Assembly: GCA_023663365.1 (NCBI GenBank)
Contig: JAMPHP010000002.1
Location: 51,464-112,795, forward strand
DNA: 61,332 bases
Source: Muribaculaceae bacterium
GTDB lineage: Bacteria; Bacteroidota; Bacteroidia; Bacteroidales; Muribaculaceae
Direction: 5' to 3'
A program made the translations under genes and the position numbers. Shown here one piece after another: positions 13,931 to 41,977 of this stretch. Each line of letters starts with the position of its first letter. The stretch's first letter is position 1. The notes beneath the pieces were generated by a model. That model was not told the origin of the DNA. It did not search any database and worked only from the letters and a program-made list of their open reading frames with translations.

Positions 13931-15160
13931 TCAATGTTTGTTTTTCGAGCTCCATTTGCCGAGATAGTTGCGGATTGAGCTCATTGATGCGGTGACGTTC
14001 TGCGGAGATATGGCATCGAGGAGCCAGTCGCGGAGCTTCGACGGGCGTGTGGTGTCGTTGATAGCCGATGGGTCTTCGACTTCACCGCTGACGTAGGTGC
14101 GAGGCTGACGCTCGCCGCGCACCACGGCCAGGGCGTTTTCGGCCAGGGCCCGGAGCTCGTTTTCACCCGGATACACATATATGGGAGCTATGAAGTTGAC
14201 GTGGTCGGCGATGAAGTCGGTCACGCGCTTGCTGTGCGCTATGCCGCCTGTGATGAGGATGGCGTCGACGTTGCCCTTGAGAGCCACCGACATGGCGCCT
14301 ATTTCCTTGGCTATGGAGTAGCACATGGCACGGAGGATGAGCATGGCATGGTAGTCGTGTGCGAGGATGCGGTCGAGCACTTCGGGCACGGAGGTGGTGC
14401 CCAGGTGTGCCATCAGGCCGCCGGAGCCGTGGACGAGGCGGATGAGCTCGGCTTCGGTGTACTTGCCCGAGAAGCACAGATGGATCAGCGGGCCGGGAGG
14501 CAGCGAGCCGGAGCGCTCGGGTGAGATCGGTCCGCAGCCGTCGAGGGCGTTTGTGGTGTCGATCACGCGTCCGCGCCGGTGCGCACTCACGGTGCACCCT
14601 CCGCCCATGTGGCACACCACGAGGTTGAGGTCCTCGTAGCGCTTGCCGGTCTCCTTGGCGAAGAGGCGTGCCACGGCTTTCTGGTTGAGGGCGTGGAACA
14701 CTGACTCGCGCGGCAGCTCGGGCACACCGCTGATGCGTGCGTAGGGCATCATCTCGTCTACCACCACAGGGTCGGCGATATACGATTTCACGCCGACTTG
14801 CTCGGCTATGTCGCGTGCCAGCAGGCCGCCGAGGTTTGATGCGTGCTGCATACGAGCGTTGATGAGGTCGCGGCGAAGGTCGTCGTTGACCTCGTAGACG
14901 CCGCTCTCGATGGGGCTTATGATGCCACCACGGCCAATGACGGCCGAAAGCTCGTGTATGTCGATGCCATTGTCGCTGAGGGCTTTGAGGATAAGTCCTT
15001 TGCGCCACTCAAACTGGTCGGCGACCTTTGCGAAGTGTGCAAGGTCCTCGGGAGCGTGCTGGATCGACTGAGTGAAGGTGGGCTCCTCGTCGGTGTAGAC
15101 GGCTATTTTGGTGGATGTGGAGCCGGGGTTGATTGCTAATATCTTGTGTGCCATTGTCAT
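13931..15160 (-). CDS. buk: Butyrate kinase
   Basis: The enzyme makes butyrate and ATP from butyryl phosphate and ADP, the last step of Ptb-Buk butyrate formation; related enzymes also use isobutyrate or valerate. ASKHA-fold motifs are clear: ILAINPGSTSTKIAVY at the N-terminus and VVCHMGGGCTVSAH near residue 195. The start overlaps the ptb stop by 4 bp, and a second ATG two codons later (MAHKILAI) is an equally plausible start. The 409 aa are some 50 longer than the usual ~355, because of a C-terminal extension after the normal end at about LAVVRGERQ. That extension is polar and has no recognised domain. Confidence 0.93.
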   Translation of the reverse strand: MTMAHKILAINPGSTSTKIAVYTDEEPTFTQSIQHAPEDLAHFAKVADQFEWRKGLILKALSDNGIDIHELSAVIGRGGIISPIESGVYEVNDDLRRDLINARMQHASNLGGLLARDIAEQVGVKSYIADPVVVDEMMPYARISGVPELPRESVFHALNQKAVARLFAKETGKRYEDLNLVVCHMGGGCTVSAHRRGRVIDTTNALDGCGPISPERSGSLPPGPLIHLCFSGKYTEAELIRLVHGSGGLMAHLGTTSVPEVLDRILAHDYHAMLILRAMCYSIAKEIGAMSVALKGNVDAILITGGIAHSKRVTDFIADHVNFIAPIYVYPGENELRALAENALAVVRGERQPRTYVSGEVEDPSAINDTTRPSKLRDWLLDAISPQNVTASMSSIRNYLGKWSSKNKH

Positions 15161-16062
15161 TTACATTGCAGGCAGGCCAGTGCGATGGAGAATAGTTTGG
15201 TGCGGGGAGTGTCGCCACGCGATGTGAGCACGCACGGAACTTTGGTGCCTACCACGATGGCGGCTATTTCGGCTCCGCCGAAGTGTGTGGCCGATTTGAA
15301 GAAAACGTTGCCCGACTCGATGTTGGGGAAGAGGAGGCAGTCGGCCTGGCCCGCTACAGTGGAGCCCGTGACCTTCTTCTCGATGGCAACTTCGGGGTAG
15401 AGCGCCACGTCGAGTGAGAGAGGGCCGTCGACAATCACCTTGCCGAGCTGACCGCGGTCGCCCATCTTGGCGAGGATGGCAGCTTCTGTCGAAGATACCA
15501 CCGACGGCAGCACTTGCTCCGAAGGAGCGATGCAGGCTATTTTTGGAGTGTCGATGCCGAGCGATGCGGCGATGCCGCTGAGGTATTTTATCAGGACGGT
15601 CTTCTGCTTGAAGTCGGGCAGCGGTATCACTGCCACGTCGGCAATGCACAGCAGCTTTTCGCGGCCGGGCATCTCCACCACCGACACGTGGCTGAGGGTG
15701 CCTTTGGGCGGGAACAGACCGGCCTCCTTGTTGAGGATACCTCGCATATATTTATCGGTCGAAACCAGGCCTTTCATGAGCACGTCGGCACCGCCCGAAG
15801 CCACAAGGCTCACGGCCATCTCCACGCATCGCACATCGCTTTTCTCGTCGACGATGGCAAATACGGTAGGGTCTATGTCCTCCTGTCGGCATATCTCGAG
15901 CACGCGGGCCTTGTCGGCGAATACTGTGGGCTCAACGAGGCCTTCGAGGTAGGCGTCGTAGACGGCACGTAGGGTATGTGAGTCATTGCCGTAGGCCACG
16001 GCGATACGTTTGCGGCCGCGCTGGCGGGCCTCTTCAACGATTTGTGTGAGTCGTGTAATCAT
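15157..16062 (-). CDS. ptb: Phosphate butyryltransferase
   Basis: The enzyme converts butyryl-CoA and phosphate to butyryl phosphate and CoA. The sequence shows the phosphate acetyl/butyryl transferase fold, with RKRIAVAYGNDSHTL near the N-terminus, LMKGLVSTDKYMRGIL, and the conserved C-terminal ATHFGGAEIAAIVVGTKVPCVLTSRGD. I place the start at the ATG at 16062 (MITRLTQIVEEA). The ten-codon upstream extension would begin at a TTG that lies inside the -7 box of a good promoter. The stop overlaps the buk start (ATGA), so the pair is coupled. The resulting protein of about 301 aa is of normal length. Confidence 0.93.
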   Translation of the reverse strand: MITRLTQIVEEARQRGRKRIAVAYGNDSHTLRAVYDAYLEGLVEPTVFADKARVLEICRQEDIDPTVFAIVDEKSDVRCVEMAVSLVASGGADVLMKGLVSTDKYMRGILNKEAGLFPPKGTLSHVSVVEMPGREKLLCIADVAVIPLPDFKQKTVLIKYLSGIAASLGIDTPKIACIAPSEQVLPSVVSSTEAAILAKMGDRGQLGKVIVDGPLSLDVALYPEVAIEKKVTGSTVAGQADCLLFPNIESGNVFFKSATHFGGAEIAAIVVGTKVPCVLTSRGDTPRTKLFSIALACLQCK

Positions 16063-16089
16063 GTGAGATTTTTGCGGGGTTAGCTTCCG

Positions 16090-16121
16090 CAAAAATACAA
16101 CAAATACTTGAGAAATCCCAA
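16090..16121 (-). promoter_or_regulatory. Promoter of ptb-buk
   Basis: The minus-strand -33 TTG (16119-16121) and -7 TATTTTTG (16090-16097) are 21 bp apart. The predicted start of transcription, near 16083, fixes the ptb start codon at 16062. Confidence 0.75.
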
Positions 16122-16168: not shown

Positions 16169-16188
16169 TTTATTTGAAAGTGATGAGG
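16169..16188. repeat. Duplicated 3' end of gtrA (left boundary of insert)
   Basis: Twenty bases here are identical to 18452-18471, the last codons and stop (LITFK*) of the GtrA-family gene. Flanking similarity extends further: GATTTATTT lies before it (with a 6-bp insertion), and GTTG follows. The two copies are direct repeats that bracket the hydrolase and Panacea genes. Confidence 0.75.
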
Positions 16189-16203
16189 GTTGCTTTACAC
16201 AGG

Positions 16204-17340
16204 TCAATTTGATATCAAATTACAAAAATCGTCGAAAAGCAAGTGATATTCACACCCTTTCTTTTCGCCCAAAGTGACAAAAATGAGGTTTTGTGTGGGG
16301 TCGCAAAACAGAACCTGACCGAATAGTCCTATAGCGAAGAAGCGTGGTGTGACTACATCCTTGCCATCGATGCGGGTGATGATATTGTTCCACCCCAGAG
16401 AGTATGCTTCGTTCTCCAATGAAGAATGAGTTGAGCGGTCAATCCATTCTTTACTCACAATCCGCTTGTTGCCGTAGACACCGCCATTTATATATAGTCG
16501 ACCGATTTTTGCCAGGTCTCTGACATTAGATACCAATCCGCCATAAGCCTTTGCCTGCCGGTTTTTATTATCGTCGAGAGAGATAAATGCGTCGACTTCC
16601 ATATCAAGCGGCTTCCATACTTTTTCCTGTAAGTATCGGGCGTAAGGAGTGCCTACAGCTCTTTCTATTGCCACTCCCAGCAAGGCAGTAGCCATTGAAT
16701 TATAATAATGAGCGGTGCCGGGCTTGGATGTGAAGTGCAACTTCTTGAATTGCTTGACTACATCTTTGCCGTAATAGAGCTTTGCCATTTTCGAGAATGG
16801 GTTCCATCCGTAGCTTTCTTGAAAATCAATCCCGGTGCGCATATCAAGCAGGTGCTCGATAGTAAGTTCCTTAAACATGGGATCTGCGTTATTAAGTTCC
16901 GTAATATACTTGGTTACGGGATCGGTTAAAGATATATAGCCCTCATCAATTGCGATGCCGCATAATAGAGCGGTTATTGCCTTTGTTATAGAGAAAATAT
17001 TTGATGGCGATAGTTGTGAGAAACTACCATAATACTTTTCGAGAAGGATAGTATCATTACGAACAATCAATAAAGCGCCGTTGCCACGGACACGCGCAAA
17101 ATACTCTCCGATTGTTTCGCTGTTAAAGCGACCGCCGGTAAATTTGGAATCCTCAAAATATCGGTCGTGATTGGCCGAAGAAATCAGCACATTCTTCGCA
17201 GCACTATTTGAGGCGATGGTATCAAGTGCGAAATTGCGGTAGGTGTCGGTTGACGGACTTCCACATTTAATAGACTTGAACGTAGTGCAGCTCGCAAAGG
17301 CTACGAAAAAAAATATTAAGAGGAAGTGTGGAGGTCTCAT
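16204..17340 (-). CDS. Serine hydrolase of the beta-lactamase/PBP-like family
   Basis: The 378-aa protein belongs to the class C beta-lactamase and esterase superfamily. The catalytic SxxK box is SITK in SNIFSITKAITALL, and the second box is the tyrosine motif YYNS. It begins with an export signal ending in FASC at residue 18, which reads as a lipoprotein signal, so it is probably anchored outside the inner membrane. The usual substrates are esters, D-amino-acid peptides or muropeptides, and there is no reason to call it a resistance enzyme. Its AT-rich composition and its location inside a segment bounded by direct repeats indicate acquisition together with the neighbouring toxin-antitoxin genes. 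It starts 35 bp after the toxin gene. Confidence 0.88.
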   Translation of the reverse strand: MRPPHFLLIFFFVAFASCTTFKSIKCGSPSTDTYRNFALDTIASNSAAKNVLISSANHDRYFEDSKFTGGRFNSETIGEYFARVRGNGALLIVRNDTILLEKYYGSFSQLSPSNIFSITKAITALLCGIAIDEGYISLTDPVTKYITELNNADPMFKELTIEHLLDMRTGIDFQESYGWNPFSKMAKLYYGKDVVKQFKKLHFTSKPGTAHYYNSMATALLGVAIERAVGTPYARYLQEKVWKPLDMEVDAFISLDDNKNRQAKAYGGLVSNVRDLAKIGRLYINGGVYGNKRIVSKEWIDRSTHSSLENEAYSLGWNNIITRIDGKDVVTPRFFAIGLFGQVLFCDPTQNLIFVTLGEKKGCEYHLLFDDFCNLISN

Positions 17341-17375
17341 AGTGCAAGAATGGCTTTGGGGCTTACTGATAGAAA

Positions 17376-17810
17376 TTATTTGCCTGCAGCTCTTTTAGTC
17401 AACCAAAATTTATGAGTTTTATCAAGAAAAACCAAATAAAATGTATCACCTACAATATGCCCTATAAGCACAGCCGGACCGTTGACATGAATTCTTGCCC
17501 ATTCGGCATCTTCCGGGACGTGCTTCGGATATTCAAATTTCGTTTTGTCGGCGGGTGGGAAAGATTGATATACGGCAAACTTATCGCCATCTATTTGCTG
17601 CCGCAAAGGTCTTTTACAGAAGCCTTGGAGGGTTTCCATTGCCCGACTTAACAATCCAACCGATTGCCAATGGTGGAAACTTGATGCATAAGGTTGATGC
17701 GGGTCAAAATATGCAAGAGAAATCTTGAAGTTTGAGTCGTTCTTTTCATCAGCTACAGATCCTCTCTCCAGTATCAGCGAAGACCGCTCGGATGGTTTGA
17801 ATTTTGCCAT
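17376..17810 (-). CDS. Putative toxin of a Panacea toxin-antitoxin pair
   Basis: The 144-aa protein is encoded directly after a Panacea-domain gene, overlapping its stop codon by one base (TGATG), the usual order for antitoxin then toxin. It is basic and mixed alpha/beta, with a hydrophobic strand-rich C-terminus (GPAVLIGHIVGDTFYLVFLDKTHKFW). I cannot place it in a named toxin family. There is no Fic, ToxSAS/RelA or transmembrane toxin signature. Its role as toxin is inferred from gene order and from the known association of Panacea domains with diverse toxins. Confidence 0.75.
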   Translation of the reverse strand: MAKFKPSERSSLILERGSVADEKNDSNFKISLAYFDPHQPYASSFHHWQSVGLLSRAMETLQGFCKRPLRQQIDGDKFAVYQSFPPADKTKFEYPKHVPEDAEWARIHVNGPAVLIGHIVGDTFYLVFLDKTHKFWLTKRAAGK

Positions 17811-18301
17811 CAGAGTCCCTGCTGGGTTCTATAAAAAGAGCGAGTGGTCTCTTTCGATATCTCCACATGGCACTTGTCGGCCTCTGCATATCCTCTTCTT
17901 GCTTCAATCCAAGGGAGTTCGCGATGTGTTGCTCGTTCGAGTTCGATACCGGACCATTTCGTCAGATTAGAAAGCACGTCATTCAGCAATTCACGGATAT
18001 CTATGGGAAGGTTGTTGACAAAAGCATCCTCATCGATTCCGTTGATGGGAGAATACGACATATCAGAATATAAGAGCGAGGCACCTTTCATTTCATTGAA
18101 AACTTTCCTGCATACAGGGCCATGTACCCAGGCCTCAAATTTGTCGGCAAGCAATTCCTCGCCAAAAAAAGCGAGGCAATACGCATCACAATAAAACAGC
18201 AGTTTCTGCAGTTTCAGGTGCGACATCGGACCAAAATGCTTGAGAATATAATTCGCAAGTACAATGGAGTCAATCTTCCCGGTTTTTGGTATTGCTATCA
18301 T
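17810..18301 (-). CDS. Panacea-domain (DUF4065, SocA-like) antitoxin
   Basis: The product (163 aa from the ATG at 18301) carries the Panacea fold: an N-terminal helical core with HLKLQKLLFYCDAYCLAFFGEELLADKFEAWVHGPV, the family hallmark, followed by a more variable C-terminal part. Panacea proteins neutralise many unrelated toxins, and SocA acts as a proteolysis adaptor for SocB. The upstream in-frame extension to 18340 is rejected because it runs into the leader. A promoter at 18373-18404 and a TTGCAT/ATGCAA inverted repeat at 18348-18375 suggest autoregulation. It sits in the AT-rich insert behind gtrA. Confidence 0.88.
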   Translation of the reverse strand: MIAIPKTGKIDSIVLANYILKHFGPMSHLKLQKLLFYCDAYCLAFFGEELLADKFEAWVHGPVCRKVFNEMKGASLLYSDMSYSPINGIDEDAFVNNLPIDIRELLNDVLSNLTKWSGIELERATHRELPWIEARRGYAEADKCHVEISKETTRSFYRTQQGL

Positions 18302-18372
18302 AATACGCCGTTTTATATATAAGACTGCTTGTGCAGGCAAAAGTTTATTGCATCATATTAAATCAAACAATG

Positions 18373-18404
18373 CAAAGGTACGCAATTCTTTCAGATAATA
18401 CAAA
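18373..18404 (-). promoter_or_regulatory. Promoter of the Panacea pair
   Basis: The minus-strand -33 TTTG (18401-18404) and -7 TACCTTTG (18373-18380) are 20 bp apart, a full consensus match. A TTGCAT...ATGCAA inverted repeat (18348-18375) overlaps the -7 box and the transcription start and could be an operator. Confidence 0.75.
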
Positions 18405-18451
18405 AAACAATCTTAGTCAAAACCTTATGTCAAAACCTTTTGAACAGCGAT

Positions 18452-18895
18452 TTATTTGAAAGTGATGAGGCGGTTGTAGACGAAGTTGGCGAGGGTGTAC
18501 ACTACGTTGCCGAGGAGTGTGGCTATGCCGTAGCCTGAAATCTCGATGCCTGCGATGCTGAACAGGAGTGAGCCGAATGTGCTCTCGTTGAGCATCCACA
18601 CTACCCAGAACTGCAGTGCGTAGCACAGTGCGAAGCCGATGAGGAACTTCACGGCCTCGCGTGTGTAGCCGCCTTTGGAGCGGAATACCCATGTCTTGTT
18701 GCAGAGAAATGAGTTGATTACGCCGCAGATATATCCGAGGGCGTTGCTCACGTAGAGGTTCAACCCGAAGAAGGATTTGCAGAGGTATATCACACCCAGT
18801 GTGACCAGGGTGTTGAGCACGCCCACGAGGCAGTATTTCACGAACTGCATTATTTTCTCGAGTCGGGCGTCGTCGGTGTGAGTATCGGTGGTCAT
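18452..18895 (-). CDS. GtrA-family membrane protein
   Basis: The 147-aa protein has four membrane helices in the GtrA/DPMS pattern, starting FVKYCLVGVLNTLVTLGVIYL and including the conserved NFVYNRLITFK end. GtrA proteins are thought to flip polyprenyl-phosphate sugars or assist surface-polysaccharide glycosylation. The start MTTDTHTDD at 18895 overlaps the preceding gene's stop by 4 bp (ATGA). A much longer reading frame extends upstream but is out of frame with that gene and meaningless. Its last 20 bp are repeated 2.3 kb away and mark the boundary of an insertion. Confidence 0.88.
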   Translation of the reverse strand: MTTDTHTDDARLEKIMQFVKYCLVGVLNTLVTLGVIYLCKSFFGLNLYVSNALGYICGVINSFLCNKTWVFRSKGGYTREAVKFLIGFALCYALQFWVVWMLNESTFGSLLFSIAGIEISGYGIATLLGNVVYTLANFVYNRLITFK

Positions 18896-19533
18896 GATTC
18901 GGGAAGGTCTTTGGGGTCCACGTGCAGAATTGGCAGCGACCAGTGGTAGTGCACCGCGAGTACGCGCAGGCCTACTACAGTGACTGCGCAACTGAGCTGC
19001 GGGATGATGGCGGATGTGCCGGGAATGTGCTGGACGGCCCAGTAGACGAGTCCACCGGCGAGGCATGCTGTGGCGTAGATGTCTTTGCGGAAGAATAGCG
19101 GCTCTTCGTTGATGAGGATGTCGCGGGTGACGCCTCCGAAGGAGCCTGTGATGATGCCCATTACTATAGCCACCCATGCGGGGAAGCCCGCGGCGAAGCT
19201 CTTCTCTATGCCTACCACCACGAAGAGCGCCAGGCCAATGGCATCGAAGAGAAAGAGGGTGCGCATACCTTTCACGAGGGCTTTACGGAATATTATCACC
19301 GTGACGAGCGAGAGGAATGTCACGGCAAGGTACATGCCCGACTGCATCCAGAACACCGGTATGCCCAGCAGGAGGTCGCGGAGAGTGCCGCCGCCGATGG
19401 CGGTGACGAGCCCTACGATGTAGGCGCCGAACCAGTCGAAGCTCTTGGCCGCCGCCAGTCGTATGCCCGAGATGGCGAAAGCTATGGTGCCGAGCACCTC
19501 GATGGAGTAGATGAAAAGGCTGTCTTCGTTCAT
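18892..19533 (-). CDS. TRIC-family cation channel (UPF0126/YicG type)
   Basis: The 213-aa protein has seven hydrophobic segments arranged as two repeats of the glycine-rich UPF0126 domain. The first repeat holds AISGIRLAAAKSFDWFGAYIVGLVTAIGGGTLRD; the second holds GIITGSFGGVTRDILINEEP. Bacterial TRIC homologues form trimeric potassium/sodium-permeable channels in the inner membrane. It overlaps nth upstream and gtrA downstream by 4 bp each, so these three are read as one message. Confidence 0.9.
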   Translation of the reverse strand: MNEDSLFIYSIEVLGTIAFAISGIRLAAAKSFDWFGAYIVGLVTAIGGGTLRDLLLGIPVFWMQSGMYLAVTFLSLVTVIIFRKALVKGMRTLFLFDAIGLALFVVVGIEKSFAAGFPAWVAIVMGIITGSFGGVTRDILINEEPLFFRKDIYATACLAGGLVYWAVQHIPGTSAIIPQLSCAVTVVGLRVLAVHYHWSLPILHVDPKDLPES

Positions 19534-39998: not shown

Positions 39999-40499
39999 TT
40001 ATTTAGATTTCATTTTATCGGAGGCAGCTTTTTTGAGCTCCTTCTCTTTCTTTCGAGCTTTGCGCGCGCAGGCGGAGCACACGCCGTAGACCGACAGCGC
40101 GAAGTAGGCGGGCGTGAAGGCCGAGAAGCGTCGGCCTTTAAGGAGCTCTTCGAGCTGAGGATCGCGTATGTCTTTGATTTTACCGCAGCGGAGGCACAGC
40201 AGATGGTAGTGGTTCGATGGCGTGGCTTCGTAGCGCATGGCACCGTCGTCGAGCCTGAGCCTCCTGAGCAGGCCGCAGTCGACCAGAAGCTGCAGAGAGC
40301 TGTAGACGGTGGCAGTGGCCACGCGGCGGCCGTTTGCAGCAAGGTGTGCCGACAGATCCTCCACGGTGAAGTGCCCCGCCATGCTTTCTGCCGAGGCAAG
40401 CACCATATAGCGCTCGGGAGTGCAGCGGCGCCGTGTGCGTCGCAGAAACTCCGAGAGGATTTGCGCCGATGCGCTTTCTCTGATGTCGTCGGCTGCCAT
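39999..40499 (-). CDS. Fur-family metal-dependent transcriptional regulator
   Basis: The 166-aa protein has a winged helix (about 15-90, with HFTVEDLSAHLAANGRRVATATVYSSLQLLVDCGLL) and a dimerisation domain with HYHLLCLRCGKI, plus a structural zinc site CLRC...CSAC. It could be Fur, PerR or Zur; the sequence alone does not decide. I choose the ATG at 40499 (MAADDIRES), because a TAAATTTG -7 box lies at 40520-40527, downstream of the longer frame's start. It is divergent from bcp, a peroxide-defence gene, which leans towards PerR-like regulation. Confidence 0.88.
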   Translation of the reverse strand: MAADDIRESASAQILSEFLRRTRRRCTPERYMVLASAESMAGHFTVEDLSAHLAANGRRVATATVYSSLQLLVDCGLLRRLRLDDGAMRYEATPSNHYHLLCLRCGKIKDIRDPQLEELLKGRRFSAFTPAYFALSVYGVCSACARKARKKEKELKKAASDKMKSK

Positions 40500-40519
40500 A
40501 GTGGTGCGTGTTGGTGTGG

Positions 40520-40577
40520 CAAATTTACGAATTTTTTTTGGGAGGGGCGCAAAAAAGAGTGAAAATGTGTACCTTTG
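40520..40577. promoter_or_regulatory. Divergent promoter region between the Fur-type gene and bcp
   Basis: The leftward promoter has -7 TAAATTTG (40520-40527) with -33 TTTG at 40550-40553, 22 bp away, slightly long. The rightward bcp promoter has -7 TACCTTTG (40570-40577) but no good -33. The overlap of the two promoters allows joint control. Confidence 0.55.
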
Positions 40578-40615
40578 TGTGTTGTACAAGCATCCGATAA
40601 TAAATACAGAATACT

Positions 40616-41068
40616 ATGATCAATGTAGGAGACAAGGTGCCCGACTTGCTTGGCACCGATGCCGAAGGCCGCGAGGTGCGTCTGAGCGACTTTCCCGGCA
40701 AGCGCGTGGCGCTTTATTTCTATCCGAAAGACAATACTTCGGGCTGCACCGCACAGGCCTGCAGCCTCCGCGACGGCTATGCCGACTTGCTTGCCGCCGG
40801 CTATCAGGTGGTGGGCGTGAGTGTGGACTCTGCCGAGTCGCACCGCAAGTTTGCCGCCAAGCACTCGCTGCCTTTCCCTCTTATCGCCGACACCGACCAC
40901 AAGCTGGTGGAGCAGATGGGCGTGTGGGGCGAGAAAAGCATGTATGGCCGCAAGTATATGGGCACTTTCCGCACCACTTTCATCATCTCGCCCGAGGGCG
41001 TGGTGGAGCGCGTGATGCTGCCTAAGGAGGTAAAGACCAAAATCCATGCGCAGCAGATTTTAGGATAA
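40616..41068 (+). CDS. bcp: Thioredoxin-dependent peroxiredoxin, Bcp type
   Basis: The enzyme reduces hydrogen peroxide and organic hydroperoxides with thioredoxin. The motif YPKDNTSGCTAQACSLRDGY gives the peroxidatic Cys44 and the resolving Cys49 typical of the atypical 2-Cys Bcp class. The length of 150 aa is normal. It is divergent from a Fur-family gene and ends at a strong terminator, which is duplicated 0.85 kb downstream. Confidence 0.96.
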   Translation: MINVGDKVPDLLGTDAEGREVRLSDFPGKRVALYFYPKDNTSGCTAQACSLRDGYADLLAAGYQVVGVSVDSAESHRKFAAKHSLPFPLIADTDHKLVEQMGVWGEKSMYGRKYMGTFRTTFIISPEGVVERVMLPKEVKTKIHAQQILG

Positions 41069-41081
41069 TCTCAACCGCACA

Positions 41082-41124
41082 GACACACAAAGCCCGCCTG
41101 CATCGGATGTTGCAGGCGGGCTTT
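41082..41124 (+). terminator. Intrinsic terminator of bcp (first copy of 43-bp repeat)
   Basis: Arms AAGCCCGCCTGCA and TGCAGGCGGGCTT pair around a TCGGATGT loop, followed by TATTTG. The whole 43-bp sequence recurs exactly at 41935-41977. Confidence 0.9.
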
Positions 41125-41296: not shown

Positions 41297-41905
41297 ATGA
41301 AAAAGCTCACATTGATAATTGCGTTGATATTATGTTTAGATCTGGTTGCATCGAGCAGTCAGAATAAGGCTTTATCGAATAATGCTGATTTGAATCTTTT
41401 GTATTTGACATCCTCCGATTCTTTGCTTTCGGTGATTGAAGATACGCCGATGATATTATATATGAGTGGTCATAATGCCCACATTTGGTCTGTTGTATCG
41501 ATAAAGGGTGGAGGGTACCATATCATCAGTGGACGAATTAATCCTTATGGAAAAAATGTTATTTATGAGCCCAACGAATCGAATGTGATTGATACTGTGG
41601 CTTTTCTATCTGCACATAAAGAAATATTATCGTGGGGCTTCGATACATTGCCATCCAAAGCCCGAAATATGAGAAGCCTTGGAGCTACGGAGTATTCACC
41701 ATTTAGCAGTAATTTGAGTATTGTCGGTTTGGACTCAGTTGATTCGTTTAATTCAAGGAATGTAAAAGTATTCTCCGGTCCGGATAGTGTGGTCTTTAAC
41801 GAGAAGTTTAAAAAATTGAACTATTTAATGTTTTGGTTGGCGGAACCTCTCGTTAGAAAATACACTCCCGATTCTGTATTTATAAGCAGGACTCCAATAC
41901 AGTAA
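41297..41905 (+). CDS. Exported orphan protein between duplicated terminators
   Basis: The 202-aa protein starts with an export signal (KKLTLIIALILCLDLVASSS). The mature part is mixed alpha/beta with SGHNAHIWSVVSIKGGGYHIISGRI and a C-terminal VFSGPDSVVFNEKFKKLNYLMFWLAEPLVRKY. No family is recognised. The gene is clearly AT-richer than bcp and the M6 protease gene around it. It is bracketed by exact 43-bp direct repeats of the bcp terminator, which marks it as an insertion. Confidence 0.78.
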   Translation: MKKLTLIIALILCLDLVASSSQNKALSNNADLNLLYLTSSDSLLSVIEDTPMILYMSGHNAHIWSVVSIKGGGYHIISGRINPYGKNVIYEPNESNVIDTVAFLSAHKEILSWGFDTLPSKARNMRSLGATEYSPFSSNLSIVGLDSVDSFNSRNVKVFSGPDSVVFNEKFKKLNYLMFWLAEPLVRKYTPDSVFISRTPIQ

Positions 41906-41934: not shown

Positions 41935-41977
41935 GACACACAAAGCCCGCCTGCATCGGATGTTGCAGGCGGGCTTT
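41935..41977. repeat. Second exact copy of the 43-bp bcp terminator
   Basis: This is identical over 43 bp to 41082-41124 and in the same orientation. It can terminate the orphan gene on the plus strand and, being a symmetrical stem, also the M6 protease message from the minus strand. Confidence 0.9.

Follow-up and report, generated by a model that had tools for sequence, protein, structure and literature searches.

A small AT-rich insert behind gtrA in a Muribaculaceae bacterium, bounded by a duplicated gene end: a candidate passenger cassette

It has long been asked how genes without mobility machinery come to new places in a chromosome, and the question is posed by a 2,262 bp block (positions 16189–18450) directly behind gtrA in a 61,332 nt stretch of contig JAMPHP010000002.1 from a Muribaculaceae bacterium (the window). 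The block holds a serine hydrolase gene and a Panacea toxin-antitoxin pair, and on either side of it stand identical direct repeats of 20 bp (TTTATTTGAAAGTGATGAGG; 16169–16188 and 18451–18470). Cis-mobilisable and decayed integrative elements have direct repeats at the 3' end of a gene and lack an integrase of their own. Insertion with long target duplication was reportedly described by Nobusato et al. in 2000 for restriction-modification genes of Helicobacter pylori. Target duplications in that process are put at about 100 bp in the available part of a review (PMC3874152); further accounts for restriction-modification genes are given in PMC3031569 and PMC1643837, and the portions available of the reports on these long, variable duplications name no machinery. 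PanAT systems, in the accessible text of Kurata et al. 2022 (PMC8832971), combine a Panacea-domain antitoxin with a small, overlapping toxin-like gene and are associated with prophages and mobile regions. Among the literature matches listed, none describes such cassettes in this family, a statement confined to those matches. The reading preferred here, with a probability of about 0.55, is that the block is an acquired passenger cassette that entered without site specificity and duplicated its local target.

The insert and its borders

The features of the locus, in order of position, are:

15157–16092, minus strand: ptb, the host gene on the other side of the insert (PF01515, 3.2e-41)
16169–16188, minus strand: direct repeat copy 2, exact over 20 bp, 15 bp past the hydrolase stop codon
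16204–17340, minus strand: serine hydrolase of a beta-lactamase-like family, N-terminus lipoprotein-like by eye (PF00144, 1.1e-39; patchy in five genera)
17376–17810, minus strand: putative PanT-type toxin, 144 amino acids (aa), overlapping the antitoxin gene by 1 base (without Pfam family; pair conserved; weakly RelE/HigB-like fold)
17810–18340, minus strand: PanA-like antitoxin (Panacea/DUF4065 domain), start codon unsettled (PF13274, 1.8e-17; NCBIfam SocA 5.3e-14, under cut-off)
18451–18470, minus strand: direct repeat copy 1, exact over 20 bp, comprising the final 19 bases of gtrA and one further base
18452–18907, minus strand: gtrA, the host gene with the duplicated 3' end (PF04138, 5e-24; nth-yicG-gtrA conserved)

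The coding sequence of gtrA ends at 18452, and repeat copy 1 thus takes in its stop codon and one base outside. Across the genome of the same bacterium (2.86 Mb, 34 contigs), only these two sites lie within three mismatches of the 20-mer, and when the window was scanned for exact repeats (at least 18 bp, spaced 0.8–4 kb, low-complexity words excluded), just two pairs emerged, this one and one other. Because of this uniqueness and rarity, and with no equivalent in control segments (0 of 1693, see below), a chance origin of the repeat was ruled out. For comparison, 11 exact repeat pairs of at least 19 bp at 0.8–4 kb spacing occur in 64 other loci (878,602 bp), all confined to four of them, two of which had been selected for carrying gene Y of the phage junction described below. 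The initial annotation had recognized a real 20-base exact repeat and placed the copy at 16169–16188 correctly, while its gtrA copy, given as 18452–18471, was one position too high. The further partial similarity it had seen beside the repeats does not rise above that of shuffled sequence: extension into the flanks was rejected, with equal or higher scores in 1486 of 2000 and 706 of 2000 shuffles of the two sides.

The insert has a guanine-plus-cytosine (GC) content of 0.43, 15 points lower than the 0.58 of its flanks, and its three genes all share the orientation of gtrA. The annotated picture of an AT-rich insert of about 2.26 kb with a serine hydrolase, a Panacea pair and no integrase was borne out: the insert encodes a PF00144 hydrolase and, next to a small partner gene, a SocA_Panacea protein. 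No recombinase match was found within the insert, and the nearest one above the Pfam threshold begins at position 218207 of contig C22, a distance of about 148 kb. The genome as a whole has four tyrosine recombinase matches above that threshold, one of them short.

Compared with insertion with long target duplication, the locus shares a small block without transposase or integrase, direct target repeats of variable length and an addiction-type gene pair as cargo. The block is foreign and flanked by target repeats, and lengths of 43, 72 and 116 bp occur at further inserts of the same genome (see below). It differs in its cargo, a Panacea pair and a hydrolase instead of restriction-modification genes (usual in the reports but not strictly defining), in its host, a gut Bacteroidales bacterium, and in a repeat of only 20 bp. 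The window pair resembles PanAT systems in having a Panacea antitoxin gene that adjoins and overlaps a small toxin-like gene; its putative toxin differs in lying outside Pfam and NCBIfam families at their cut-offs and is weakly RelE/HigB-like by fold. As in elements integrated by tyrosine recombinases, the duplicated gene end is present at both borders, but there is no integrase in the insert and the same core was found nowhere else in the collections searched. Unlike cis-mobilisable or decayed integrative elements, the gtrA site yielded no related integrase-bearing element in 20 gtrA loci, 398 genomes and IMG/VR.

Spread of the two modules

At E 1e-90 or better, the hydrolase was matched in 15 of 348 family genomes, its own among them, from five genera. 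Its relatives are 55–90% identical, all but one at 73% or more; similarity ends at the gene boundaries, and the genomic contexts of the copies differ. For 13 relatives, identity could be set against that of the essential protein PheS, and the hydrolase was the more alike in eight (G029, G027, G326, G328, G243, G135, G120 and G116), equal in one (G322) and less alike in four (G046, G034, G098 and G148). Genome G029 has two copies, 90% and 86% identical, compared with 63% for GtrA and 76% for PheS, and G326, from another genus, has a hydrolase at 86% compared with 72% for PheS. Since identities exceed those of PheS in eight of the 13 relatives and the distribution is patchy, the hydrolase is taken as horizontally transferred. 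Plasmid searches returned 76 records, every one below 60% identity. For the 25 NCBIfam families listed out of 41, the hydrolase falls far under the cut-offs, and it is therefore not to be called a resistance gene.

The toxin partner was matched in six of 398 family genomes (own included), and in none of the other genomes of its own genus. Three matches in other genera, at 77–82% identity, keep the Panacea gene adjacent, while two distant relatives (G382 and G071; 32–34% identity) have no Panacea match nearby. The two-gene arrangement thus recurs in three other-genus genomes, and also in Bacteroides phage BI-TP1 as gp23-gp24, where the Panacea call comes from a note in the phage record. The middle protein (17376–17810) reaches the cut-off of no family in either Pfam or NCBIfam. 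It was modelled from six sequences at a mean predicted local distance difference test (pLDDT) score of 80, and the top-ranked solved folds were mostly RelE, HigB and YoeB toxins; the best E-value was 0.064, and as none reached 0.001, calling the protein a 'RelE-like ribonuclease toxin' is no more than a lead. Its action as a toxin, and the relief of that action by the antitoxin, are putative. A small Acinetobacter plasmid (NZ_CP026748.1) carries a 30%-identical relative of the toxin gene behind an annotated ATP-binding protein gene and has no annotated Panacea gene, so the toxin family may also have partners other than Panacea.

Both modules are mobile between genera and the insert is foreign, as the initial annotation had held: the hydrolase and the toxin pair recur across genera, and a duplicated host stretch borders the insert.

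Repeats around other hydrolase copies

Upstream and downstream sequences were compared at 16 hydrolase copies, 15 from relatives and that of the window, a copy split over two contig ends in G007 being excluded. Alignment revealed direct repeats within the same locus in seven of the 16:

Window: 20 bp, 100% identity
G034: 101 bp, 98%
G326: 42 bp, 98%
G116: 130 bp, 92%
G120: 49 bp, 90%
G027: 44 bp, 86%
G135: 32 bp, 91%

When only exact flanking repeats were counted, with a minimum of 18 bp and a reach of 1.2 kb, five of the 16 copies (window included) had them, compared with none of 1693 controls, which were random segments of equal length drawn from the same loci. In five of the seven, the start of the right-hand repeat falls in the span from 6 bp ahead of the hydrolase stop codon to 28 bp past it. 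The repeat of G326 surrounds the hydrolase and two more genes, one HTH_3 and one Gp49, which resemble a toxin-antitoxin pair. At the three chromosomal hydrolase sites the lengths are long and variable (20, 42 and 101 bp), that of the window being short. Ten repeats compared with one another have no common word of 9 bp or more, save for three at one phage junction; in 240 cross-locus pairs, five exceed the 39 bits of the window repeat, all of them joining phage-junction places, and the best pair outside these reaches 33 bits. Because the repeats differ in sequence and length and have no common core, one site-specific integrase acting in trans is disfavoured, and the set of repeats, as far as sequence can tell, favours a process that copies its target over variable lengths above a single site-specific recombinase.

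Several hydrolase copies lie between two genes designated Y (77 aa) and X (278 aa), downstream of a third, Z (365 aa); two of these placements (G328 and G120) were made by eye only. No Pfam or PHROGs family matched Z, Y or X, but X is 25% identical to a Microcystis phage protein annotated as a portal protein, and Z-Y-X is therefore probably a prophage module. Spacing between Y and X is about 30–60 bp in five loci, and G027 has both an unoccupied junction of about 66 bp on one contig and an occupied one of about 3.1 kb on another, with sides 90% and 98% identical. The repeats at this junction are partial copies of the start of X and of the ends of Z-Y. The junction also gathers passenger genes, with truncated copies of X and Y between successive ones in the manner of a cassette array, at L225 (G027:C30, 34–5325), L252 (G116:C88) and L229 (G007:C33).

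One recognisable gene can thus be traced from place to place, 16 in all across five genera, some flanked by repeats and others not, and at times accompanied by toxin-antitoxin pairs. These copies form a natural set of insertions for work on mechanism, and would widen the pattern beyond restriction-modification genes.

Origin of the insert and similar inserts in the genome

Under the preferred reading, a cassette made up of the Panacea pair and the hydrolase, genes that elsewhere in the Bacteroidales lie in or beside phage genes, would have arrived right next to the gtrA end, its entry requiring no specific site and copying the local target sequence. A linear fragment may have been joined at a staggered break with its ends filled in, or uptake may have combined a one-sided homology anchor with an illegitimate join landing 20 bp inside gtrA. 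Since gtrA retains its stop codon, the insertion is expected to be harmless. Once in place, the cassette would be guarded by its toxin-antitoxin pair, which would penalise cells that lose it, also when the two repeats recombine, an addiction role in line with speculation in the accessible text of PMC8832971.

The gtrA and ptb loci of relatives were surveyed within the genus, where gtrA was matched in 39 of 50 genomes (own included) and ptb in 48 of 50; 20 gtrA loci were read over 0.9–17.9 kb downstream, and 17 ptb loci over 0.55–10.5 kb upstream. Neither set contained gtrA followed by ptb (0 of 20 and 0 of 17), and the best matches to both genes shared a contig in no other genus genome, these genomes being fragmented, so that adjacency across contig ends is possible where unread. 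Among 80 ptb loci from GTDB genomes, none had a gtrA relative nearby. No relative read has gtrA adjoining ptb, and the insertion event at gtrA is therefore inferred, as are its mechanism and the addiction role; the sequences themselves show the repeat, the foreign composition, the spread of both modules and the local repeats beside other hydrolase copies. A second copy of the gtrA end was found in none of the 20 gtrA loci, the best reaching 16 of 22 bases (each 22-base word was placed where the protein match ended, which does not always coincide exactly with the stop codon). These 20 loci also gave no sign of an insertion hot spot behind gtrA, and that idea was dropped. Gene order around gtrA and ptb shifts fast within the genus (L077, L084, L098 and L099 compared with the window), while nth-yicG-gtrA stays joined, its order being retained in all 29 gtrA loci of relatives that were compared.

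The rival with most in its favour supposes a larger integrative element or prophage that entered site-specifically at the 3' end of gtrA and then lost its integrase and body, leaving two passenger modules between attL and attR. The repeat does lie precisely at a gene end, both modules are found elsewhere in or beside phage genes, and the genome has its four recombinase matches, one of them short. Against this stand the distance to the nearest recombinase, the single gtrA ends in the relatives, and the record of the 20-mer itself: its only exact copies in 398 family genomes are the two of the window, it occurs with one or two mismatches once each, never twice, in seven other family genomes, and IMG/VR contigs hold no exact copy. 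This origin is considered unlikely. The same geometry and the same recombinases can be called upon for a non-autonomous cassette integrated at gtrA by an integrase in trans, as initially proposed, but the proposal fared poorly and is now thought improbable. The 20-bp site is used nowhere else in the genome, the repeats of other hydrolase copies have no core in common with it, and viral contigs lack an exact copy; the suggested search for the same site beside other inserts likewise returned no further site in the genome and no exact copy in other family genomes or IMG/VR. Rearrangement of the chromosome, bringing the gtrA and ptb regions together and forming the repeat at the breakpoint, would fit the separation of the two genes in relatives, and also G046 and G007, which share one neighbourhood downstream of gtrA and one upstream of ptb, both unlike the window. 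It leaves the foreign genes and the repeats flanking other hydrolase copies unexplained, and is given little credence.

Several observations weigh against an acquired cassette that duplicated its target. At 20 bp the repeat is short, a length that an attachment core could also have, and the relatives read provide neither an empty gtrA-ptb site nor an occupied one. The gtrA-ptb junction itself may involve rearrangement, given the other neighbourhoods that G046 and G007 have in common on either side. Nine of the 16 hydrolase copies, several of them near contig ends, have no flanking repeat above background. Repeats at the Y-X junction may come from recombination between related phages; since G027, G116, G120 and G135 lie at or near that junction, where phage recombination can make repeats, only the window, G034 and G326 are independent chromosomal cases among the seven repeat-bearing copies. 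Elsewhere, copies of the toxin-antitoxin pair have repeats on both sides of just 16 nt at 94%, 23 nt at 83% and 29 nt at 76% identity, and none at a fourth locus. No hydrolase was confirmed in IMG/VR viral contigs.

A broader view, offered tentatively and judged doubtful, is that tiny cassettes free of integrase and transposase, carrying a hydrolase and at times a toxin-antitoxin pair, form a whole class in Muribaculaceae and their kin. They would spread between phage junctions and chromosomal gene ends by a putative machinery that duplicates 20 to about 130 bp of the target, with the pair protecting the repeat-bounded cargo from deletion.

Other repeat-bounded inserts occur in the same genome. 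One in the window looks like the same kind of insertion as the block behind gtrA, and consists of:

41082–41124, no strand assigned: copy 1 of an exact 43-bp repeat, a terminator-like hairpin (z -6.3)
41297–41905, plus strand: lone AT-rich open reading frame of 202 aa between the hairpin copies (insert GC 0.37 compared with 0.58; no Pfam family)
41935–41977, no strand assigned: copy 2 of the exact 43-bp hairpin repeat

An empty site for this case was not found, the adjoining reading frame (40010–41047, possibly not a real gene) matching its own genome alone at E 1e-60. Over 442 kb scanned, five of 16 repeat clusters enclose DNA about 8 or more GC points under its flanks, one of the five being paralogous coding sequence; random segments showed the same drop in 133 of 5000 cases in contig C11 (381 kb of it scanned) and in 313 of 5000 in the window. 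The cluster at C11:201494 was dropped as paralogous coding sequence. Contig C11 also has a 116-bp direct repeat (about 181463–184231) around an AT-rich gene for a BspA-type LRR_5 protein and a 72-bp direct repeat (about 295832–296470) around a DUF2442 gene, both 93% identical as counted from printed alignments.

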